Source of the DNA: Brevinematales bacterium
GTDB taxonomy: Bacteria; Spirochaetota; Brevinematia; Brevinematales; GWF1-51-8
Direction of reading: 5' to 3'
Assembly: GCA_020059465.1 (NCBI GenBank)
Contig: JAGVBZ010000021.1
Coordinates: 1-64,000, forward strand
DNA length: 64,000 nucleotides
Shown piece by piece: positions 14,474 through 26,343 of the stretch. The stretch's first letter is position 1, and each line of letters begins with the position of its first letter. The notes below the pieces were generated by a model. The model was not told the DNA's origin. It saw nothing but the letters and a program-made list of their open reading frames with translations, and did no database searches. A program made the translations under genes and the position numbers.

Positions 14474-14499
14474 AAGCCGCTCCTTGATAGGAGCGGCTT
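14474..14499. terminator. Bidirectional terminator between recG and the envelope operon
   Basis: A perfect 11 bp stem (AAGCCGCTCCT, 14474-14484; partner 14489-14499) with a four-base TGAT loop. On the minus strand it is followed by a T-rich tail, so it ends the envelope operon; on the plus strand it follows the recG stop by about 20 bp. Confidence 0.85.
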
Positions 14500-14514: not shown

Positions 14515-15900
14515 TTATTCTGATACTTGGATATTTTCTATCGCCTGAGGTTCGATGATGTCGTTGATGATTTTATCGAGTCTCAATATAACATCTTTCG
14601 CCTGCTGCTTACCAAGAAATACTTCATCAAATTGTTCGTCCATCTTCTGCCGCACTTCCAACCAATAAGGGTTGGCGGGAGCAAACTTCGCGTATGCCAA
14701 CTGAATGATGAAGGGATCGGCTTTAGAACTCTTCATAGCCAAATGAGGCTGAAATTTTATTACTTCCGGCGCCTTCAGATAATGATCGGATTCCACAAGC
14801 GATATTCTCGAAGGAACACCGGTACCGGCTTCAGCATTAAATATCTGGCCTTCATAACTGGTAACAAACTTTAAAAGTTTCCATGCTGCATCTTTATTAG
14901 GAGACTGAGAGGCAATCGCCAGCGAAACAGTCACTACTGTAGAAGCCTTTTTTACCTTATAGGGCAGAACAGCATAGTTCCATCGGAAGTCTTTGACTTT
15001 TTTAAACTTCTGCATCTGCCATCGTCCGTACATACACATCGCGACACGGCCCGACATGAAGGCTTCGCCGCCGCCGAGTTGTCTGGATTGGTCTACACTG
15101 GGAGCTACACCGACAACATTGATAAGGTCGGCTACAAACTGAATAGCCAAAGCGTTTTTATCAACGTTAGCGCCGCGGGAAAATACCCAGTTTCCTTTAT
15201 CGTCGAAGATCATACCGTCATTCTGCATTATCCATGAATTATACCAGTCCGCCCATGTTTCGATAATAAACCCGTACTGGTCAATTTTCTTATCGCCGTT
15301 GACATCAATCGTCAACTTTTTTGCGGCCGCGAGGAAATCGTCCCATGTCCATGTATCGTTCGGATAAGCCACACCTGCCTTATCGAACATATCCATATTA
15401 TAGTACAAAACGAACGATGTCCAGTCCTTCGGTACACCGAATAATGTTCCTTCGAAGGTAAACGCGTTCATCAACTGAGGATAAAAGTCCCCAGCGTTGA
15501 AATCTTCATCTTTGATGTAATCATCTAAGGGGGCTAAGTTACCCTTGCTTGCATATTTGAAAAAGTCCTGTATATGGAGATAGAATACATCAGGATATGT
15601 TCCGCCGGCAAACATCGTTTGAAGTTTATCGGAATAGGAAAGAGAATCGACTGAAATAACTTTTAAACCAATCGGTTCGCCTTTTTCCTTCTGAACTGTC
15701 TGGAAACGCTTTAAAACCGAGTAAACCGCGGTTTTCTCTTCCGGCGTACCCCACATCAGAAAGGTCAGGACAACATCCCCTGTTTCATCCAGTTTATACT
15801 CTTCAGAAACCGAATCATTAGTTCCGCCGCTCCCCTTTCCGTCGCATGCGGTAAAGGTCAGCACGGCGATACATGCGAACATCCAAAAATACTTGGTCAT
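14515..15900 (-). CDS. ABC transporter sugar-binding lipoprotein
   Basis: A periplasmic solute-binding protein of the SBP family 1 (MalE-like) class, 461 residues. It begins with a lipoprotein signal ending FTAC (Cys about residue 19). Family features include FLMWGTPEEKTAVYSVLKRF, a Ca-loop-like DVNGDKKIDQYGF and WTWDDFLAAAKKLT. Start at 15900 has GGAGG five bases upstream; a TTG four codons earlier overlaps that site and is rejected. It is the last gene of the seven-gene envelope operon, after two glycan-binding lipoproteins, which suggests a glucan-derived oligosaccharide as substrate. No permease gene is in the window. Confidence 0.9.
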   Translation of the reverse strand: MTKYFWMFACIAVLTFTACDGKGSGGTNDSVSEEYKLDETGDVVLTFLMWGTPEEKTAVYSVLKRFQTVQKEKGEPIGLKVISVDSLSYSDKLQTMFAGGTYPDVFYLHIQDFFKYASKGNLAPLDDYIKDEDFNAGDFYPQLMNAFTFEGTLFGVPKDWTSFVLYYNMDMFDKAGVAYPNDTWTWDDFLAAAKKLTIDVNGDKKIDQYGFIIETWADWYNSWIMQNDGMIFDDKGNWVFSRGANVDKNALAIQFVADLINVVGVAPSVDQSRQLGGGEAFMSGRVAMCMYGRWQMQKFKKVKDFRWNYAVLPYKVKKASTVVTVSLAIASQSPNKDAAWKLLKFVTSYEGQIFNAEAGTGVPSRISLVESDHYLKAPEVIKFQPHLAMKSSKADPFIIQLAYAKFAPANPYWLEVRQKMDEQFDEVFLGKQQAKDVILRLDKIINDIIEPQAIENIQVSE

Positions 15901-15917
15901 GTATGCCTCCAAAAACT

Positions 15918-16376
15918 TTATTTGTCTAAAACGTAGATAACGGACTTGAAAGAACCATCGGCTAATTCGTACTTATCCGGGTTGTTCTGATCTCCTTTGA
16001 TAAAAATTCCCTGATCAATCGCATACTGATATAGATATCGCCCTGCATTAAGGGGAATAGTAGCTGTCCAAAAACCCGTAGACGGATCCTTCTGCATTGC
16101 TACCTTCGCCCCCTGCGATAACGGCATATCGGGATAAAATGGATTGGACTTTCCTATCGCCCAATTATTAAAATCCCCGATTAGCCACACCTCGCGCGCG
16201 GTGGGGTCGTCAAAATTAAATTTTACCATAATTTCACTTCCGCCGAGCGAACCTAAAACTTTATAGGGATAAACCCTATCCATTACCTCGGCATTGTCAC
16301 AGCCTGAGAAGCAAAACATTAAACCTATTATCAATAAAATTCTATGAGCCTTTACTCTATCTAACCAAAAATTCAT
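15918..16376 (-). CDS. Lipoprotein with CBM48-like glycogen-binding domain (second copy)
   Basis: A 152-residue lipoprotein (lipobox CFSGC near residue 26) whose remainder is one beta-sandwich of the CBM48/AMPK glycogen-binding type: VWLIGDFNNW, a central FWTATIPL strand and NAGRYLYQYAID. Of the three glycan-contacting positions of AMPK beta, the first Trp (FNNW) is kept, but the Lys of the QYKF motif reads Gln (YQYAI) and the second Trp appears to be replaced by Phe (QGIFIKGD). It may bind a different ligand or bind weakly. It is 17 bp before the sugar-binding lipoprotein. Confidence 0.8.
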   Translation of the reverse strand: MNFWLDRVKAHRILLIIGLMFCFSGCDNAEVMDRVYPYKVLGSLGGSEIMVKFNFDDPTAREVWLIGDFNNWAIGKSNPFYPDMPLSQGAKVAMQKDPSTGFWTATIPLNAGRYLYQYAIDQGIFIKGDQNNPDKYELADGSFKSVIYVLDK

Positions 16377-16395
16377 TCACTCCGCCTTATTTTGC

Positions 16396-16896
16396 TTATT
16401 GCGCAGGTTCTTCAGGTTCTTCCTCTTTTGTTTCTTCTTTTGCCCCGCTAGGCATGGTAACCATAACAATCGAGTTGTGCCCACCGAAACCATCATCCAC
16501 ATGCTCGGGAGTATTCGGGTCTTCCTGCCAGTTTGACGTATCAACAATATATTTATATTGATACCTTCCTGGGGGTAGAGGTATAGTGGCCACCCAATAT
16601 CCGGTTTTCGGATCGAGCTTCATCACCACACGTGCGTTCTGCTGAAGGGGTACCGCCGGATAAGCAGGATTGCTTTTACTTTGGGACCAGTTATTAAACG
16701 ACCCTGCTAACCAAACTTCAGTTGCCGAAGGAGCGTCAAATACAAACTTGACAAGCACCTCGCTTTCCTGGATTCCAACAATTTCATATGGGATATAACG
16801 ATCCTTTACAGCATCGAGCACACCGCAAGAGGAAAAAACAAAGTTAACAACTAGTGTGCCTACCAGCGCAAGGAGGATCTTTTTTATATATTTCAT
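16396..16896 (-). CDS. Lipoprotein with CBM48-like glycogen-binding domain (first copy)
   Basis: A 166-residue lipoprotein (lipobox VFSSC near residue 24) followed by one CBM48-type domain: VWLAGSFNNWSQ, YWVATIPLPPGRYQYKYIVD and NWQEDPNTPEH. All three ligand positions known from AMPK beta (Trp, Lys, Trp) have counterparts, so alpha-glucan binding is likely. A Glu/Pro-rich tail (about 150-166) ends the protein. Translation is placed at MKYIKK (16896), which has CGGAGGT at the right distance; an upstream in-frame ATG lacks one. It is paralogous to the next gene and 24 bp after the barrel gene. Confidence 0.82.
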   Translation of the reverse strand: MKYIKKILLALVGTLVVNFVFSSCGVLDAVKDRYIPYEIVGIQESEVLVKFVFDAPSATEVWLAGSFNNWSQSKSNPAYPAVPLQQNARVVMKLDPKTGYWVATIPLPPGRYQYKYIVDTSNWQEDPNTPEHVDDGFGGHNSIVMVTMPSGAKEETKEEEPEEPAQ

Positions 16897-16920
16897 TATT
16901 ACCTCCGTTCTACAAATCAA

Positions 16921-18489
16921 TTAAAACTTTATTGTAGCATTGAAGTTTATTGAAGGATTAGCAACTAATTTCAGCCAATCTGCAGCATAAACTTGTGTTT
17001 CTGAACCAACTGTAACATAGCTTAGTGTTTTGGAAACCATGTTTTCTAAATTGCCTCCGCTGTTATCGTATTCAAAAGTTTCAACATTATACCCAAAGGT
17101 TAATGAGAGAGTTAACGTTTCAAAAGGAGACGAAATGAAACCTACTACTGGTAAAAAATATGATGGTTCGTAGGCTTTTAATCCTGCACTGCTCATGATA
17201 TTGTACATTACAATTCCAGCATATACCCATGAAGTTTCATCAAAGTAATAATCAACTGTGGCTTTAACAACCAAATCTGCTGTAGTATTTGTCCCAATTT
17301 GATAGGATTCATAAGATCCGGCAAGTCTAACATCAATTATATCAAAGAGCGGTATTCTAGCACTTAAAGAAGCACCAAGACCACTGATATCGGATGTTGA
17401 GCTTTTTCCAGAAAAGAAATTAACATTCGCTAAAAGAAAAAGCTGAACAGCACCAAAATCAAGAGCATTATAATCCTTTACCATAATATCCATTCTATAA
17501 TCAGATCCGGGAGTGTACATTCTGTACAGCGCTGCAACTTCCATTTGAGACCCTTCAATAATTTCGGTGCCAATTCCCGCATATATGTCAATTAAACCAT
17601 TTTTCGCAACATTTGTCGCGTATCCGGGCAATCCCGATCCAGTTCGATATATACCCTCGATAAATATATTGACTACTTCCAAATTGATATTTCCAAACAA
17701 ACCAGCAGAGTAAGTTACAAACGCATTATTATATCGTTGAGCAAGTCCGTTAAACATATTTGTTACATTGTATGCAGTACCTTTTACCTGATCATTATTT
17801 GGGTGATTATCAATTTTTAAAAGCACTCCAGCCTTTATTAACCCTAAATCATAAGCAATATCACCCTGTATATGGGAACTTGTCTGCCATTTATTCAAAT
17901 ATGCTGCTATCTCATAACTCAAGTCTCCTTTGCCCCCTAAATATAGACCGGTTAAGCCATAACCCATTTTTAAGAAACGATCATCAACTTTTTCACCTTC
18001 ATAAAAGGCGGGGGTTTTAACAGAGTTATTGAAAGAAAAGTATACGGGTTTATCGTAGCTGTATCTGGAATTTTCCCAAAGCGCCTGATCTATACCTGTA
18101 AACATTGGATCCTGAAATCTAAATCCATACCGATTGACAAACAATGCAATATTTGCAGAATCGGTATTATAAATAAAATTAAATCCCTCAGCAATTAAGT
18201 AATCGTTTCCAGTAGCATACGGATTTATTTTTATCTTCATTTCAGATTTAAACTGTTTATCTTCATATGTTGGATAAAGATCCAGTTTTAAGAAAGAAGT
18301 ACTGGTCAGTAGAGGCTGTCCAGTACCACCAGTATTTACCAACTGATTAGAAATATCCAGTTTCATATTCATTAAAAAGAATCCTTTCCCTTTAAAAAGA
18401 AGCAATGCGCCATGTGAAGTATTTGAAAGCCCCATCATATAAAACACTGCAAATATAACTACAAAAACTATTTTCTTAACAGCATTCAT
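16921..18489 (-). CDS. Putative outer-membrane beta-barrel protein (522 residues)
   Basis: A signal peptide (residues 1 to about 28, ending SHG) precedes about 490 residues of alternating short amphipathic strands rich in Tyr, Asn, Gly and Thr, and the chain ends in Phe (NATIKF), as many outer-membrane barrels do. No lipobox or internal helix is seen. No named family is recognised; a porin-like role in taking up the ligand of the neighbouring glycan-binding lipoproteins is inference. Start has AGGAGG upstream. Confidence 0.7.
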   Translation of the reverse strand: MNAVKKIVFVVIFAVFYMMGLSNTSHGALLLFKGKGFFLMNMKLDISNQLVNTGGTGQPLLTSTSFLKLDLYPTYEDKQFKSEMKIKINPYATGNDYLIAEGFNFIYNTDSANIALFVNRYGFRFQDPMFTGIDQALWENSRYSYDKPVYFSFNNSVKTPAFYEGEKVDDRFLKMGYGLTGLYLGGKGDLSYEIAAYLNKWQTSSHIQGDIAYDLGLIKAGVLLKIDNHPNNDQVKGTAYNVTNMFNGLAQRYNNAFVTYSAGLFGNINLEVVNIFIEGIYRTGSGLPGYATNVAKNGLIDIYAGIGTEIIEGSQMEVAALYRMYTPGSDYRMDIMVKDYNALDFGAVQLFLLANVNFFSGKSSTSDISGLGASLSARIPLFDIIDVRLAGSYESYQIGTNTTADLVVKATVDYYFDETSWVYAGIVMYNIMSSAGLKAYEPSYFLPVVGFISSPFETLTLSLTFGYNVETFEYDNSGGNLENMVSKTLSYVTVGSETQVYAADWLKLVANPSINFNATIKF

Positions 18490-18515
18490 TTGAATCCTCC
18501 TATTTTCCTGTATAA

Positions 18516-20126
18516 TTATATATTATAGTTAAACCTTAACACAATCTTCCGCTCAAACTGCTTGGCGGAATAGGTCGAACCAACTGTGCTGGTCAAGCGG
18601 TCAGAATCACCGCCGTTTCCAAATTCAAGATATATTCCCATATTATTAAGAGGGTAATACTGAATTTGACCGAAGTAGTTCCACCATGTCGATGAACCCG
18701 AAGATGTTAAAATAGCACCACCACTGTTCATTAATAATATACGTGAATAGAGTTTTAACTGCGATGATATATTAGCGACTAATTCTAAACCGCCAGCTTC
18801 AATTCGATAGTGAGGGTCATCATAGAAAGCACGATAAATTTTATATTGCAGATTAATTTTTCCGGTTTCATTCTCAAACTTGAGGTCAAAGAATAATGCG
18901 TCATTATCTTTATTATCATCATATTTATTATTCCCGCCCCACAATTCAATACTACCCGGCTTATATAAGATATAGCTTGCAAAAAACTTTATTCCTTTCT
19001 TAAACTGAACACTCAGCTTTGTATAGTAGTTTAATACCTGCCCAGTGCCATATACTCCTTGGTTATAATCCCAAATATGATATCCCCAAATCCAATCGGA
19101 ATTTGCAACTGTGGATGTAGGGAGGACGGGACTACCAAATTTTGCGGAAGATACATATACCGGGTGAGCATATTTCATATTAAACTCAAAATCAATCATT
19201 TTTAATGGAAATGCATATAAAAATTGAAAAAACTCCTCGAACCAGTTTCCGCCTGTTCCGCCAAATTGTGCATCGGCATCATAATTTCTTCCCTTGTATA
19301 AAATGCTTCCATTAAGGTTAAAATTCCCGGCTAATGTAGGGAATGTTGTTTTTAACTCAAAACGATAGGCAAGGGCATCGATAGCACCTAAAAACGGTTT
19401 ATTTGTAATCGGACCTCGCCACGCTTCATCCAAATGATTAAATTCAAATCCTAAGAAAATATTTATCCCGGCAGGAAGGTTAATATTTGCGTTTGCATCA
19501 TATCCGAATCCCAGTACGGTATTGTTGCTTTTCGCCTGCCACCGTTTCATAGAAAAAGTAAACCCTAACGAACCGGCAAAGAATTTACCGATCTTATACC
19601 CTCCGTCAAAGCGGGTGCCAAGATAATTATCATTTACATCCTTTCCATAAATTACAGTTTTTGTATGCAGACCTTTTAGTAACTGATCACTTTGCTCGAA
19701 GAAAAAAGTTACTGTCTTCTGGTCGGTGTTCTTTTGACCAAAAATACTAAGATAGGGCTGCCCTAACCATGTCCAGTTTTCGTTACGAATCAACGAAAAA
19801 TTTAATTTATTGGGTCTATATGAAAAATGTATCTGTTCATTGCGAATCTGCATATTTGCTACTGAAGAATCAAAGAGATTCATCTTCAAATTTCCCCATC
19901 CCGTCCAACCGTTGTCACTTAATAGATTCATCTTTAATTCATAGTATCCATATTTCGTATCACTATATGGATATATTTTCCATGTTCCATTCGAAACGAC
20001 TGTCCCTGTGGCATCATTATACCACTGAACCCCCCCCTCCATAAATGCGTTCCAAGTAATCCCTGCAAACATTGCTCCTGAGCATAGAAATATCAAAAGC
20101 AATGTAACAAATATCTTTATTTTCAT
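18516..20126 (-). CDS. Putative outer-membrane beta-barrel protein (536 residues)
   Basis: The protein has a signal peptide (to about residue 21, AMFA) and then repeated aromatic-rich strands (GYYELKMNLL, GWTGWGNLKMNL, FNLNGSILYKG), with Trp and Tyr unusually frequent, a feature of carbohydrate-handling porins. The C-terminus (KIVLRFNYNI) is a final amphipathic strand. No exact family is recognised. It sits 21 bp after the PorV-like gene and 26 bp before the other large barrel, from which it differs clearly in sequence. Confidence 0.7.
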   Translation of the reverse strand: MKIKIFVTLLLIFLCSGAMFAGITWNAFMEGGVQWYNDATGTVVSNGTWKIYPYSDTKYGYYELKMNLLSDNGWTGWGNLKMNLFDSSVANMQIRNEQIHFSYRPNKLNFSLIRNENWTWLGQPYLSIFGQKNTDQKTVTFFFEQSDQLLKGLHTKTVIYGKDVNDNYLGTRFDGGYKIGKFFAGSLGFTFSMKRWQAKSNNTVLGFGYDANANINLPAGINIFLGFEFNHLDEAWRGPITNKPFLGAIDALAYRFELKTTFPTLAGNFNLNGSILYKGRNYDADAQFGGTGGNWFEEFFQFLYAFPLKMIDFEFNMKYAHPVYVSSAKFGSPVLPTSTVANSDWIWGYHIWDYNQGVYGTGQVLNYYTKLSVQFKKGIKFFASYILYKPGSIELWGGNNKYDDNKDNDALFFDLKFENETGKINLQYKIYRAFYDDPHYRIEAGGLELVANISSQLKLYSRILLMNSGGAILTSSGSSTWWNYFGQIQYYPLNNMGIYLEFGNGGDSDRLTSTVGSTYSAKQFERKIVLRFNYNI

Positions 20127-20147
20127 TATCTCCTCCTTATAAGTTCA

Positions 20148-21089
20148 TTAGAAGGGTCTGATTGACAAACCGATATGACTATACAATTTCAATCCCGGTA
20201 CTACCCACAATCCAAGATCAATTTTAAAATAATCAGAGTCCGTTAATCCGATGCCTAAAGTTAGAGAACCTTCATTAAATCCCGTATATATTTCAAGATT
20301 ATCCAAATAATCAAATTCAATTCCAAAATAAAGATTTGCAAACGAAAAACTATCCCCAAAAAGGTTGAGGTAATTCACCGCATGCTGAGAACCAAGAACA
20401 TTATAATCCAATGTTATATTTAGGAATTTGGTAATATTGTACTTAAGCCCCAGAAATAGATCCCTTTTCAGTGTGTCACCTACACCGTCTATTAGAGAGA
20501 GACTAGTAGAATAAAGATTTTTTCCATTTACTGCAAAAATAAAATTCTTATCAAAAAACGCCAATTGAAGACCCAAATCAAAAGCAAAACCTAATGCATC
20601 GCTTTTCATTGCAAATCCCGGATATACAGGCACATTCCCAGCATGCAAATCAATTAGCTTTAAACTAAGCCCTAATGAGAGTGATTTTAAAGTACTACTC
20701 CCTAAATCAAACGACGTACCGCCGCCTATATAGATGAAGTTATATGATAAGGTATTAAAATCTCCTGTGGACTTAAAACCTAATGCCGCTTTGAGAAACC
20801 CAAGATTATATCCAGCAGCAAACGCGAACTCATGCATATTATAACCTGCCACATCTTCATACGGCATTCCATAGGCAACCCAAACTTCAAGGTTCTTTTT
20901 TATATCGGATAAGGCGGCGGGATTAAAAAACAAAGATGATATCCCCATCGAATCGGCGGTTACAGCACCACCCTTACCCACTACTTTACCGCCTAAATAG
21001 CGGCTTTCGATTATTTCGCCATATACTCCGTTTATCGCTGTACAAAAAGTTAGAGTAAAACAAACAAAAATGAATTTAAGTTTTTTCAT
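20148..21089 (-). CDS. PorV/UPF0164-like outer-membrane protein
   Basis: A 313-residue exported protein (signal peptide to about residue 24, VYG) with the FadL/PorV/UPF0164 N-terminal hallmark: GGKVVGKGGAVTADSMGISSLFFNPAAL is split here as a Gly-rich plug-like turn followed by FFNPAALSDI. The rest is a barrel pattern ending IGLSIRPF. UPF0164 proteins are expanded in treponemes. In other phyla, PorV-type barrels move hydrophobic compounds or shuttle secreted proteins, but its task here is unknown. Confidence 0.72.
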   Translation of the reverse strand: MKKLKFIFVCFTLTFCTAINGVYGEIIESRYLGGKVVGKGGAVTADSMGISSLFFNPAALSDIKKNLEVWVAYGMPYEDVAGYNMHEFAFAAGYNLGFLKAALGFKSTGDFNTLSYNFIYIGGGTSFDLGSSTLKSLSLGLSLKLIDLHAGNVPVYPGFAMKSDALGFAFDLGLQLAFFDKNFIFAVNGKNLYSTSLSLIDGVGDTLKRDLFLGLKYNITKFLNITLDYNVLGSQHAVNYLNLFGDSFSFANLYFGIEFDYLDNLEIYTGFNEGSLTLGIGLTDSDYFKIDLGLWVVPGLKLYSHIGLSIRPF

Positions 21090-21102
21090 AGTATCCTCCT
21101 TT

Positions 21103-22494
21103 CTAACGGATTACGTTAACAATACCCTTCAGCTTGATTGCATCGCTGGAGGGATTGAATCCGCTTAATACAACTATGTAAGTACCCATTCCTACAACTC
21201 TACCCTGATCATCTGTTCCATTCCATTTTAAGTATTGACTGATATTGTATTTATCAAGAGTATCATCGCCTTCATAAATTGTTGCAACCTTGTTACCGGA
21301 CAAATCGAAAACATAGACCCGCACTGAGTATAAATATCCAAAACTATCCATCACGGTACTATCAATCCCAAAAGTAATCTCACCGCCTTTATCAGGGACA
21401 AGATATGAAGTGCTATTACTAAAATTGTCTTTCACTGAGTTAAACTGGGGAACAATAATACTTAGATAATCGCTTGCCCCGGGAATAGCATAGATCTTTC
21501 CGTTTACATTAGGAGAATAATTTGTATTTACATGACCGTTCGTAAAAACGTTTAATAAGAAATAATTCTCTAAAGCTACACGGGGATTTAAGGGATTTAT
21601 TCCTCCTAAATTATCCGGACAAAAATCATAAACCGGACTTCCGTCATCTGGACCAGTACTTACAGCTGCAAGTTTTATAGTCAGGTTGGAAATATAGACA
21701 GGAGACATACCATTGGTAAAAAGACTCCATTTAACATATCCTAGAACCACTCTTTTTGCGGGATCAATTTCGTCATCACCATTGAAATACATATAGAAGG
21801 TATTGCTTAATGCTGTGATATTCCATGTTGCCGCACCCCCAACAGCTACATTACAAAGCTGCTGCCATGCTACGTTTAACCCACCAGAAGGATCGCTGCT
21901 TACAGTTCGCCAAGCCTGATATCCCCCACCTCCGGTTAATAATGGCTGATCATTTGCACACCAAAATCCTAGATAAAAATCCGTATCCCATTGATATAAA
22001 TTTATATTCCGTTTCCACCCTGTATTCATATCCTGCATCGAACGAGTTCCAACATTGGTAACACGGTCGAGAAGAAATAATATATTATTCCATCTGCCCA
22101 CTGATTGCCCTTGAATTGCATAATAAAACCCATTAGTATCCCATGTGAACCACAATCCAAAAATCTCTCCGGAAGTCTGCGAGTTTGCACTAGACATCTT
22201 TGAATCATCAGATAACTCACATCTGTTCTGAGTTGTTTTGGGAGGATATAGAAATTGCGTAATATTTGATATAGAATTCGTTGAAAATTTCGGATAAGTT
22301 AATACTTTCGCCCCGTTTATAAGTATATCATCCGCATCCCATCCAAAACTTACTCCATCCCAATTGGCTATAACAAGAGATGAGTTCGTAATATAATTCA
22401 ATAAATAACTTTTATCGGCCGCGGATTTTGAATATCCCTGCGATGTCACTGCCAATACTATCGTAAAAAAGAAAAGTATTCTCAATAACTTCAT
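21103..22494 (-). CDS. Secreted protein with C-terminal FlgD-like Ig domain
   Basis: The first gene of the envelope operon, 463 residues. A signal peptide (about 1-22) is followed by a Trp/Tyr-rich beta region (about 80-270: LWFTWDTNGFYYAIQGQ, ILFLLDRV, DTDFYLGFW) that resembles DOMON/CBM9-type sugar-binding sandwiches by eye only. The last 85 residues match FlgD-type Ig domains (VRVYVFDLSGNKVATIY, LKWNGTDDQGRVVGMGTY). Translation is placed at the ATG of MKLLRIL, behind GGAGG; the upstream nine codons are rejected. A surface or periplasmic glycan-binding role is inferred from context. Confidence 0.65.
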   Translation of the reverse strand: MKLLRILFFFTIVLAVTSQGYSKSAADKSYLLNYITNSSLVIANWDGVSFGWDADDILINGAKVLTYPKFSTNSISNITQFLYPPKTTQNRCELSDDSKMSSANSQTSGEIFGLWFTWDTNGFYYAIQGQSVGRWNNILFLLDRVTNVGTRSMQDMNTGWKRNINLYQWDTDFYLGFWCANDQPLLTGGGGYQAWRTVSSDPSGGLNVAWQQLCNVAVGGAATWNITALSNTFYMYFNGDDEIDPAKRVVLGYVKWSLFTNGMSPVYISNLTIKLAAVSTGPDDGSPVYDFCPDNLGGINPLNPRVALENYFLLNVFTNGHVNTNYSPNVNGKIYAIPGASDYLSIIVPQFNSVKDNFSNSTSYLVPDKGGEITFGIDSTVMDSFGYLYSVRVYVFDLSGNKVATIYEGDDTLDKYNISQYLKWNGTDDQGRVVGMGTYIVVLSGFNPSSDAIKLKGIVNVIR

Positions 22495-22528: not shown

Positions 22529-22556
22529 AGTTTAAAGTACTTTTATGTTTTGTCAA
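22529..22556 (-). promoter_or_regulatory. Promoter of the envelope operon
   Basis: On the minus strand, a perfect TTGACA (complement 22551-22556), 16 bp spacer and TAAACT (complement 22529-22534), about 35 bp upstream of the first gene's ATG at 22494. No operator-like palindrome is evident next to it. Confidence 0.65.
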
Positions 22557-22831: not shown

Positions 22832-23692
22832 ATGATCATCAACCACAACCTCAGCGCAATCTTTGCCAACCGTGCGTTGAAAAATGACGGACTCGAGATG
22901 GACAAGAACATCGAAAAACTGTCATCCGGTATGCGTATCAACAAAGCCGGCGACGATGCATCTGGGTTGGCTGTGTCTGAGAAAATGCGTGCTCAGATTC
23001 GCGGCTTATGGCGGGCTGTGAAGAACACTGAGGATGCCATTTCATTCATCCAGACTACCGAGGGTTATCTCCAGGAATCCACCGATATCTTACAACGTCT
23101 TCGTGAACTTTCCGTGCAGGCCGCGAACGGTATCTACGACACTACCGATCGTATGATGATTCAAGTGGAAGTTTCCCAGATGGTTGACGAGTTGGATCGT
23201 ATTGCTTCTCATGCCCAGTTCAATGGTATGAACATGCTGACCGGCCGTTTCGCTCAGCCGAATATCGGAAATACACCTACTGCAAGTATGTGGTTCCACC
23301 TCGGCGCGAACATGGACCAGAGAGAACAGGCGTTTGTCGGCACTATGTCCGCCGCCGCTCTCGGCATGAAAAACCCTGTTAACAACACCATTGTAAGCCT
23401 CAGCACTCCCGAAAACGCGAATATGTCTATCGGTTTGATTGACGTTGCGTTAACCAAAGTGAATAAGCAGAGAGCGGACCTCGGTTCTTACCAGAACCGC
23501 CTCGAATATACCAGTAAAGCTTTGATGATCGGTGCTGAAAACCTGCAGGCTGCCGAATCCCGCATTCGCGATACCAATATGGCTACTGAGATGAGCGATT
23601 TTGTAAAGAATCAGATACTCACTCAGGCCGCGACTGCTATGCTCGCTCAGGCTAATCAGAAGCCTCAGCTTGTTCTGGCTCTTCTGCGGTAG
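22832..23692 (+). CDS. flaB: Flagellin FlaB-type core protein (first copy)
   Basis: Builds the filament core, which in spirochaetes lies in the periplasm. The 286-residue protein keeps both conserved ends: [14 protein letters not shown], then [20 protein letters not shown] (residues 31-50), and the C-terminal [25 protein letters not shown] and [11 protein letters not shown]. The central surface domain of enteric flagellins is missing and replaced by a short stretch (about 140-180), as in FlaB proteins. No signal peptide is present, as expected for type III export. Confidence 0.97.
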
Positions 23693-23735
23693 GGGGTTCC
23701 TCAGGGATAGGTATTAACGATACATCGAACATATA

Positions 23736-23768
23736 AGTAGTTACCCCGCCGCCATCGGGGTAACTACT
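23736..23768 (+). terminator. Strong hairpin terminator after first flagellin gene
   Basis: A 13 bp perfect stem (AGTAGTTACCCCG from 23736, partner ending 23768) with a seven-base loop, followed by GTTTATAAAA. It lies 44 bp after the flagellin stop. Confidence 0.8.
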
Positions 23769-23779
23769 GTTTATAAAAC

Positions 23780-23811
23780 TCCCGATCCTGTATCGGGATA
23801 TATCTGTTTTT
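23780..23811 (+). terminator. Second hairpin with T-run between flagellin genes
   Basis: Stem TCCCGAT (23780-23786) with ATCGGGA (23792-23798) and a five-base loop; a short T-run (CTGTTTTT) comes eight bases later. Together with the preceding hairpin it separates the two flagellin transcripts or sets their ratio. Confidence 0.5.
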
Positions 23812-23899
23812 AACGGTAATAGGCTCGTGATCTTCTACCTTATACTCCATCAAACCGTACCCGCGAGTACGGTACCTAGGGACCCCAACAATCACAGGG

Positions 23900-23920
23900 A
23901 TGGATAACTTTTTTCAAGGA
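23900..23920 (+). promoter_or_regulatory. Possible second CsrA-binding leader (flagellin copy 2)
   Basis: AUGGA at 23900-23904 and AAGGA of the ribosome site at 23916-23920 (AAGGAGGG) repeat the pair of motifs seen in the first flagellin leader, with cores 16 bases apart. No convincing hairpin holds the first motif, so this is weaker than the upstream copy. A separate hairpin (CCGTAC...GTACGG) lies near 23856-23873. Confidence 0.3.
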
Positions 23921-23928
23921 GGGTAGAA

Positions 23929-24816
23929 ATGATCATCAATCACAATATCAGTTCTGTTTTCGCGAACAGACAGTTTAAGATTACCGAGAATAACCTGAAC
24001 TCCGATATTGAGAAGCTGTCATCCGGCATGCGTATCAACAAAGCCGGCGATGACGCTTCAGGTTTAGCGGTATCGGAAAAAATGCGCACTCAGATTAAAG
24101 GGCTTTATCAGGCTATGCGGAACACCGAGGACGCGGTTTCCTTCCTTCAAACTGCTGAAGGATACCTGGAAGAAACTACGCAAGTACTCCAGAGAATACG
24201 CGAACTTTCGGTTCAGGCGGGTAACGGCGTCTATAGTTCGGAGGATCGTTCGCTTATCAATGTGGAGATCAACCAACTGTTAGACGAAATCAACCGGATC
24301 GCCTCGCATGCTCAGTTCAACGGTATGGATATTTTCTTAGGCCGTTTCTCGCAGCCTAACGTGAACACTCCCGCTTCGGCCGGAGCGGCTCCCGTTAAGG
24401 AAGAGGAAGCGGGTTTATGGTTCCATATCGGACCGAATATGAATCAAAAGGTTCAGGTATTTATCGGAACAATGAATGCTGCTGCCCTGGGGCTTGTACA
24501 AGATAAGAATCCCCAGGTTTCGGCGGAATTGCCGGAAACAGCCAATCGTTCCATAGGTATCGTCGACCAGGCTCTTTCCAAAGTCGCTAAGCAGAGAACT
24601 GACCTTGGTTCCTATCAGAACCGTTTCGAGAAGCTTTTCAAAGGACTCTATATCGCTTTTGAAAACACTCAGGCGGCGGAATCCCGTGTCAGAGATACCA
24701 ATATGGCTGAGCAGATGAGTGAATTTGTGAAGAACCAGATCCTAGCGCAGGCTAATGTTTCCATGCTGGCTCAGGCAAATTTAAAGCCTCAGCTGGTGCT
24801 GAGGCTCCTTGGTTAG
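23929..24816 (+). CDS. flaB: Flagellin FlaB-type core protein (second copy)
   Basis: A 295-residue paralogue of the preceding flagellin, with the same N-terminal ([34 protein letters not shown]) and C-terminal ([25 protein letters not shown]) domains. It differs in a longer middle loop with an acidic, Ala/Pro-rich insert ([15 protein letters not shown], about 146-160). Filaments of spirochaetes often mix several FlaB proteins, so co-assembly is likely. No clear promoter of its own was found; read-through or a weak promoter near 23774-23801 is possible. Confidence 0.97.
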
Positions 24817-25026: not shown

Positions 25027-25596
25027 CTAGGATTTCTGCTGATCGGTCTCCGCTGACTTCTCTGATTCAGCCTTGGATTTCCGCGCGGTCTTCTTCTCGA
25101 AGAACAGGAAAAGTACCGCGAGTGTAATACTCCCGCAGACTACGAACGCATCCCCGACATTGAACGTATACCACCGGATCTGCTCGTTCAGCCCCCAGTC
25201 GATAAAGTCCACCACAAACCCGTTATACGCGCGGTCGATAATATTTCCGAACGCCCCGCCGATGATCGCCATCAGCGCGACACGCCCGAACACCTGCGGT
25301 TCGCCGTCCTTGATATACTTTGACAAATTCCGGTAGAAATAAATGACCACTCCCACAGCGATTAACGCGGTAATCACGAGTATGACCGGTTTCCACGCGC
25401 CCTCGACGTTATTGAGCATCCCGAACGTGATACCCGTATTCCGGGTGTATGTCCATCGCCATACCGTACCGAGGAATTCGACCGGCCGGTGGAGCGTCAG
25501 GGTAAGCACGGCGATATACTTCGTAATCAGGTCGAGCGCCGCGACAAAAACCGCAATCGCGGGCATTATAACATTATTCCAGTCGAATTTCTTCAC
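25027..25596 (-). CDS. lspA: Lipoprotein signal peptidase II (copy 1, distal)
   Basis: Cleaves signal peptides of prolipoproteins in the inner membrane. The 189-residue protein has four hydrophobic helices and the two catalytic Asp motifs GNIIDRAYNG and FNVGDAFV, plus the conserved RNTGITFG. A GTG at 25594-25596 behind GGAG gives a start (VKKFDWNN) that lines up with the other copy; the open frame continues 22 codons upstream, but that part overlaps a dispersed repeat. The Lys/Ser-rich tail (about 165-189) is not conserved. Confidence 0.92.
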   Translation of the reverse strand: MKKFDWNNVIMPAIAVFVAALDLITKYIAVLTLTLHRPVEFLGTVWRWTYTRNTGITFGMLNNVEGAWKPVILVITALIAVGVVIYFYRNLSKYIKDGEPQVFGRVALMAIIGGAFGNIIDRAYNGFVVDFIDWGLNEQIRWYTFNVGDAFVVCGSITLAVLFLFFEKKTARKSKAESEKSAETDQQKS

Positions 25597-25635
25597 TGTT
25601 TTTTCTCCTATCCCGAACATCTGCGAACTCTGCAA

Positions 25636-25667
25636 GTCATTACGAGACATTAGCCGAAGCAATCAGT
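25636..25667. repeat. Fragment of dispersed intergenic repeat
   Basis: GTCATTACGAGAC, a short gap, then GAAGCAATC, which resembles the outer arm of an intergenic palindrome common in many bacterial genomes (GTCATTGCGAG...GAAGCAATC). A related full inverted repeat is at 46276-46342. It occupies the gap between the two lspA genes. Confidence 0.45.
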
Positions 25668-25791: not shown

Positions 25792-26343
25792 CTATTTCTT
25801 ACTTTCGACTTTATCCGTATCGGGCTTGGGTTCCTTCTTCTCGAAGAAGAGGAATAAAATCCCGAGCAGAATACTCCCCACTACAAGAAACGAGTCCCCG
25901 ACATTGAAGATAAAAAATCTCGCCTGATGATTGATGCCCCAGTCGATGAAGTCGATGACCGACCCGTTGATAATCCGGTCGATAATGTTTCCGACCGCCC
26001 CGCCCATAATCATCATCAGTGCGGTACGCCCCCATATCTCGGGTTTCCCGTCCCTGATATATCTCGACAGATTTTTATAGAACAGCACGACCACCGCCAT
26101 CACAACCAGATTGGTCGCAACCAGCATCGCGGGTTTCCATGAAGCGTCAAGTCCGCTGAGGATTCCGAACACTACTCCCGTGTTGCGTATGAACGTCCAC
26201 CGCCAGAAAACCCCGATAAATTCGACGGGCTGATGAGGCGGAAGAGTACTGACCACGATTTGTTTCGTGATCAGGTCGAGCGCCGCCGCAAGCAATGCGA
26301 TCAGCGGGAAAACTATCCATTTCCATTCGAGTTTCTTTTTCAT
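25792..26343 (-). CDS. lspA: Lipoprotein signal peptidase II (copy 2, next to ileS)
   Basis: A 183-residue paralogue of the preceding lspA, with the same layout: helix 1 with LDLITKQIVVS, RNTGVVFG, GNIIDRIINGSVIDFIDW and FNVGDSFLVVG, holding both catalytic Asp residues. It starts 10 bp after the ileS stop, the classic ileS-lspA order. Both copies look intact, so the duplication may be recent or kept for dosage or substrate range, given the many lipoproteins here. Confidence 0.94.
   Translation of the reverse strand: MKKKLEWKWIVFPLIALLAAALDLITKQIVVSTLPPHQPVEFIGVFWRWTFIRNTGVVFGILSGLDASWKPAMLVATNLVVMAVVVLFYKNLSRYIRDGKPEIWGRTALMMIMGGAVGNIIDRIINGSVIDFIDWGINHQARFFIFNVGDSFLVVGSILLGILFLFFEKKEPKPDTDKVESKK

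Follow-up and report, generated by a model that had tools for sequence, protein, structure and literature searches.

A conserved seven-gene spirochaete operon that may serve outer-membrane uptake of alpha-glucans

An envelope operon of seven genes, conserved at its core in several spirochaete families, probably encodes an outer-membrane uptake apparatus for alpha-glucan (maltodextrin, starch or glycogen fragments), a reading in which binding and transport are inferred and to which a probability of about 0.62 is assigned. To our knowledge, the passage of oligo- and polysaccharides across the spirochaete outer membrane is poorly known. The DNA analyzed, a stretch of 64 kb referred to here as the window, belongs to a 3.19-Mb MAG (G000) from the same genus as ‘Spirochaetes bacterium GWF1_51_8’. 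The features of the operon, all on the minus strand, are the following:

22529–22556, minus strand: putative promoter, TTGACA-16-TAAACT (10/12 match; spacing of 16 nt also kept in G002 and G003).
21103–22494, minus strand: g1, secreted protein with a conserved N-terminal beta-rich region and a C-terminal FlgD-like/CHU_C-like tail (profile searches, orthologues, hhalign).
21163–21324, minus strand: FlgD-like/T9SS-CTD-like tail of g1, residues 391–444 (profile match).
20148–21089, minus strand: g2, PorV-like outer-membrane protein (weak NF033709 match, hhalign).
18516–20126, minus strand: g3, predicted beta-barrel A (hhalign to G019/G029, co-occurrence, amphipathic strands, low-confidence AF2 model).
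16921–18489, minus strand: g4, predicted beta-barrel B, of genus-specific sequence but placed as the other barrels are (amphipathic strands).
16396–16896, minus strand: g5, CBM48/AMPK-type lipoprotein with glycan-binding residues retained (Pfam, residue alignment, lipobox).
15918–16376, minus strand: g6, diverged CBM48 lipoprotein paralogue (Pfam, residue alignment).
14515–15900, minus strand: g7, CUT1-type sugar-binding lipoprotein (Pfam, solved relatives, co-occurrence).
14474–14499, minus strand: bidirectional intrinsic terminator, common to the operon and the convergent recG (hairpin, present in congeners).

A check of the open reading frames reproduced, on the minus strand, the seven genes and the 13–26 bp gaps of the original prediction; from g1 to g7 these gaps, as read from the sequence, are 13, 21, 26, 24, 19 and 17 bp. 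The single promoter also proposed there cannot be told from chance by scanning the window alone, which yields as many sites as shuffled sequence (31 found, 31.8 expected), but its hexamers and spacing (TTGACA-N16-TAAACT) are kept upstream of g1 in three species (G000, G002 and G003). The single terminator reappears as a hairpin with a T-run at the end of the operon in 4 of 4 congeneric genomes, with differing stem sequences. Conservation of the promoter in three species and of the end hairpin in four thus supports g1–g7 as one transcription unit. Two flagellin genes (22832–24816) are divergent from the operon, an adjacency that is kept within the genus and not in other families, and two lspA-like genes for lipoprotein signal peptidases (25027–25662 and 25792–26343) stand side by side next to ileS, a pair also seen in G002 (L026:39-1304).

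Each of the four genomes of the genus contains the operon, one copy being cut off by a contig end, and the proteins of three congeneric operons, one of them on MIBE01000053.1 of Spirochaetes bacterium GWF1_51_8, are mostly 60–90% identical. Outside the genus, a core order consisting of a FlgD-tailed secreted protein, a PorV-like protein, barrel A, one or more further barrels and a CBM48 module recurs in four other spirochaete families. In family f5, which belongs to the same class (G014, G015 and G016, partly G013 and G017), the g1-PorV-g3 order is kept at about 25–32% identity, and in G014 and G015 two large barrel-like proteins come after g3, and after them a CBM48 lipoprotein that shares 45% identity with g5. 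Overall, the f5 core shows about 27–46% identity to the genus operon, its flanks are unrelated, and the G014 and G015 clusters are without g6, g7 or flagellins. Three other families are represented by G019, by G029, and by G041 and G051. There a g1-like protein is followed in turn by a PorV-like protein, barrel A and a fusion protein of 664–698 amino acids, in which an N-terminal CBM48 is joined to a barrel-like region; another barrel follows where the contig extends, and G051 has a CBM48 lipoprotein in addition to the fusion. In a survey of 393 Spirochaetota genomes the g1 and g3 markers were each found in 12, with 11 genomes common to both, in which the two genes are adjacent wherever the contig permits (hypergeometric P for co-occurrence about 2e-19, a value that ignores relatedness, the independent lineages numbering about five). 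Within the order to which the window belongs, the survey found neither marker in any other family. Co-occurrence of the gene set is thus conserved across related Spirochaetota genomes. The proposal that all seven proteins form one system holds for the core, which recurs in other families, but not for g6 and the SBP g7, which by these comparisons are additions of this genus outside the conserved core.

The nature of the substrate is indicated by the genes linked to the homologous clusters of distant relatives. In G019 and G029 the cluster runs on into a secreted protein of ~3300 amino acids, in G019 with a second PorV-like gene in between. The G019 protein contains a GH13 catalytic domain (amylase) and a Glucodextran_C match, and the same motifs were judged by eye in its G029 counterpart. 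Downstream of this gene, G019 also encodes a protein of ~1000 amino acids that matches CBM20 weakly and has a Por_Secre_tail/CHU_C-like (T9SS-like) end. Beside the g1-like gene of G019 are a TrmB-family regulator and a pulA-type pullulanase-like GH13. Inside the operon itself no GH13 enzyme was found in this genus or in f5. Together with the contact residues of g5 described below, the linked GH13 amylase, pullulanase and TrmB regulator support alpha-glucan handling by the operon, the role proposed originally. In domain make-up, the ~3300-amino-acid secreted proteins (L097/L068 and L098/L069; G019:C34:13317-23216 and G029:C130:11304-21122) combine GH13 with CBM-like, FN3 and repeated DOMON-like domains.

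Both g5 and g6 contain lipoboxes and pass the Pfam cut-offs (g5, AMPK1_CBM, 43.0 bits against 26.8; g6, CBM_48, 23.2 bits against 22.4), which agrees with their description as two CBM48 lipoproteins, but on residue alignment they are not equivalent. Of W100, K126, W133 and N150, the main glycan contacts of AMPK-beta CBM48, all four are kept by g5 in every species aligned, f5 counterparts included, whereas each of the three g6 sequences aligned keeps only W100 and has lost the other three. The full set of canonical glycan-binding residues is thus, in these alignments, retained only in g5. The host genome encodes 16 CBM48-like (AMPK1_CBM-like) domains in varied contexts, including peptidase-like and TPR proteins, so that finding the domain says little by itself about glucan binding. 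On contigs C3, C16–C18, C22, C25, C29 and C31 of G000, for example, CBM48 lipoproteins occur as tandem pairs or following a GH13 enzyme, one TPR protein carries the domain three times, and a peptidase-like lipoprotein has it as well. That many of these domains are non-enzymatic, and that flagellin genes adjoin the operon, would fit a function in envelope maintenance or in the handling of the cell's own glycans (e.g., a flagellar or periplasmic-glucan role), with CBM48 as a structural E-set domain. Such a function is very unlikely, however, in view of the alpha-glucan enzymes linked in G019 and G029 and of the absence of flagellin adjacency in f5, G019, G029, G041 and G051; a functional meaning of this adjacency was rejected because it is not conserved outside the genus.

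The fusion proteins also bear on the side of the outer membrane at which the CBM48 acts. In the original prediction both CBM48 lipoproteins were exposed at the surface, where they would hold glycogen or starch while the barrels pass fragments, an arrangement to which the lipoboxes of g5 and g6, the intact CBM48 of g5 and the large extracellular amylases of distant relatives can be fitted. We nevertheless regard it as improbable, as most binding residues are lost in g6 and the fusions place the CBM48 between the signal peptide and the barrel. Ordinary outer-membrane protein barrels have a periplasmic N-terminus, and by this topology the CBM48 is more probably located at the periplasmic face than at the surface. 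The tie between CBM48 and barrels that the prediction had drawn is upheld, CBM48 being linked to predicted barrels and, in three families, fused with one.

That g3 and g4 are outer-membrane beta-barrels is predicted from several features of their sequences. The amphipathic-strand excess (z) is 2.8 for g2, 3.4 for g3 and 4.0 for g4, against at most 1.5 for cytosolic controls and −1.2 for the SBP; the mature parts of g2–g4 contain no cysteine, the last residue of g2 and of g4 is F, and aromatic C-termini are found in most members of the barrel set. The two large barrels proposed at the outset are thus favored by strand pattern, although the AF2 models, built from few sequences, are of low confidence (pLDDT 31 for g3, with about 20 strands in the model, and 28 for g4). 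By hhalign, g3 is related to barrel A of G019 and G029 (97.5%), whereas profile comparison of g4 with the barrels of other families gave no significant match. Pfam searches with g2–g4 returned no convincing match, and nothing useful came from profile searches of the PDB with these three proteins and the N-terminus of g1; neither g3 nor g4 matched the LamB family in Pfam or PDB, and none of the seven operon proteins matched TonB_dep_Rec or Plug at E<=1.

The first two genes of the operon recall type IX secretion (T9SS). In the window, the FlgD_ig tail of g1 is weak and below the Pfam cut-off, but orthologues exceed the cut-offs for FlgD_ig (G019 and f5) or CHU_C (G041; 29.8 bits, cut-off 27). 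The g1 protein is homologous to 375-amino-acid proteins of G019 and G029 (hhalign 99.2%), and its profile matches 144 of 393 Spirochaetota genomes, mostly via the tail. FlgD-like-tailed proteins, at times followed by a PorV-like protein, are widespread in Spirochaetota (e.g., L070:9545-14014). A Glucodextran_C-like fold was also considered for g1 and not established (hhalign against the amylase DOMON-like repeats, E 0.002 and probability of only 14%). A profile search relates g2, already described as PorV-like, to the PorV family NF033709 with an E-value of 6.6e-6, although its 25.9 bits are under the curated cut-off of 90; its f5 orthologue reaches 1.2e-9, and hhalign with the PorV-like proteins of G019 and G029 gives 98.9%. 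Orthologue tails above the cut-offs next to a PorV-like protein suggest a T9SS-like anchoring of g1. In the 2016 TXSScan survey, T9SS was found only in Bacteroidetes (PMC4793230). Such anchoring could be the purpose of the operon, g2 receiving g1-type tails and fixing proteins on the surface as in type IX secretion, with glycan binding being incidental or for attachment. This possibility would explain the tails of the g1 orthologues, the family match of g2, the tailed ~1000-amino-acid protein linked in G019 and the wide occurrence of the g1 model. It is unlikely, however, to account for the operon, since T9SS includes neither such barrels nor a CBM48 fusion or an SBP, and the genes linked in relatives are alpha-glucan enzymes; the T9SS channel SprA had no match in the nine system genomes, a result that is not decisive because no control genome matched either.

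In the preferred reading, uptake through the outer membrane continues at the inner membrane with g7. The description of g7 as an ABC sugar-binding lipoprotein is borne out by its SBP_bac_1 match (123.9 bits, Pfam cut-off 26) and by its nearest solved relatives, which are oligosaccharide SBPs. These relatives bind diverse sugars, which weighs against the alpha-glucan reading. SBP relatives of g7 are also present in families without the rest of the operon, and recruitment of g7 into the operon would therefore be a feature of this genus. For the permease, expected to be encoded elsewhere, the genome offers one plausible candidate. It encodes four SBP_bac_8 proteins (on contigs C13, C29 and C23, and g7), of which the C13 SBP has its own MalFGK-type genes alongside and the C29 SBP adjacent permeases, and among the CUT1-like permease pairs found in the genome only G000:C27:16237-18952 is without an adjacent SBP. 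The C23 SBP was set aside as partner of the C27 pair, being a 72% paralogue of the C29 SBP, and a C6 permease pair was rejected as partner of g7 for its phosphate-type neighborhood. In 18 of the 19 genomes compared, a g7 orthologue and an orthologue of the C27 permease are either both present or both missing (Fisher P 0.004), the exception being an incomplete MAG. This elimination and co-occurrence make the C27 pair the candidate partner of g7. C27-type permeases adjoin CBM48-GH13 enzymes in G029 and G051, and in G019 the g7 orthologue and a CBM48-GH13 gene overlap. In G029 the g1-like gene is immediately preceded by a gene for a Peripla_BP_4 sugar-binding-like lipoprotein (L069:9660-10646), with an SBP fold unlike that of g7.

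In the resulting model, extracellular cleavage of large glucans would fall to enzymes encoded elsewhere, and g3 and g4 would form outer-membrane channels admitting maltodextrins. The g1 protein may act as a secreted accessory or glycan-contacting protein, with its tail held by g2. Oligosaccharide would be caught beside the barrels, most likely at the periplasmic face, by g5 as the counterpart of the fused CBM48 of relatives, and g7 would hand the sugar to the MalFG-type permease, putatively the C27 pair. The diverged copy g6 is probably structural or binds something else. A more far-reaching version, which we consider doubtful, would see here a novel kind of outer-membrane polysaccharide importer, independent of TonB, whose PorV-like and CTD-tailed secreted proteins join CBM48-equipped barrels as a gate or adaptor. 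Such an importer would do the work of SusCD in these Spirochaetota. The conserved set, the CBM48-barrel fusion, the linked amylases and the candidate ABC permease provide a concrete and testable uptake model, through which the PorV-like and CTD-like proteins of Spirochaetota become tied to glycan use.

The operon appears to be an undescribed variant of glycan uptake operons, and no description of such a spirochaete system was found in the open literature searched, in line with the original prediction. It recalls type IX secretion in that a protein with PorV-family similarity below the cut-off is encoded next to one with a CHU_C/FlgD_ig-type tail, and differs in that SprA is without a match (in a search without positive control) and in that the relatives' genes are linked to alpha-glucan use. 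AMPK-beta/CBM48 modules are resembled by g5 in family match and W/K/W/N contacts, but the module is here a free-standing bacterial lipoprotein or, in relatives, part of a predicted outer-membrane barrel protein. The Sus system (SusCDEFG) of Bacteroidota, an envelope operon for starch, combines alpha-glucan-binding lipoproteins, outer-membrane barrels and GH13 enzymes. Glucan-binding-type lipoproteins and predicted outer-membrane barrels likewise occur together here, with secreted GH13 enzymes in relatives, whereas neither SusD nor a match to a TonB-dependent receptor was found, and the operon instead encodes an SBP of ABC type and a protein resembling PorV. The predicted lack of SusC and SusD is confirmed insofar as the operon has no TonB-receptor match and SusD (PF07980) is absent from 8 of 9 system genomes, including that of the window, with a positive Bacteroides control; the SusD/RagB match of G019 lies on a separate contig (L159, G019:C315:3850-4323) and could be contamination. 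Enterobacterial maltodextrin uptake proceeds through maltoporin and MalE-MalFGK. The pathway proposed here likewise has a sugar-binding protein of SBP_bac_1 fold, together with a predicted outer-membrane channel and a candidate CUT1 permease; in it, by contrast, the barrels do not match LamB, permease and SBP are encoded apart, and a CBM48 module, a PorV-like and a FlgD-tailed protein are present that have no counterpart there.
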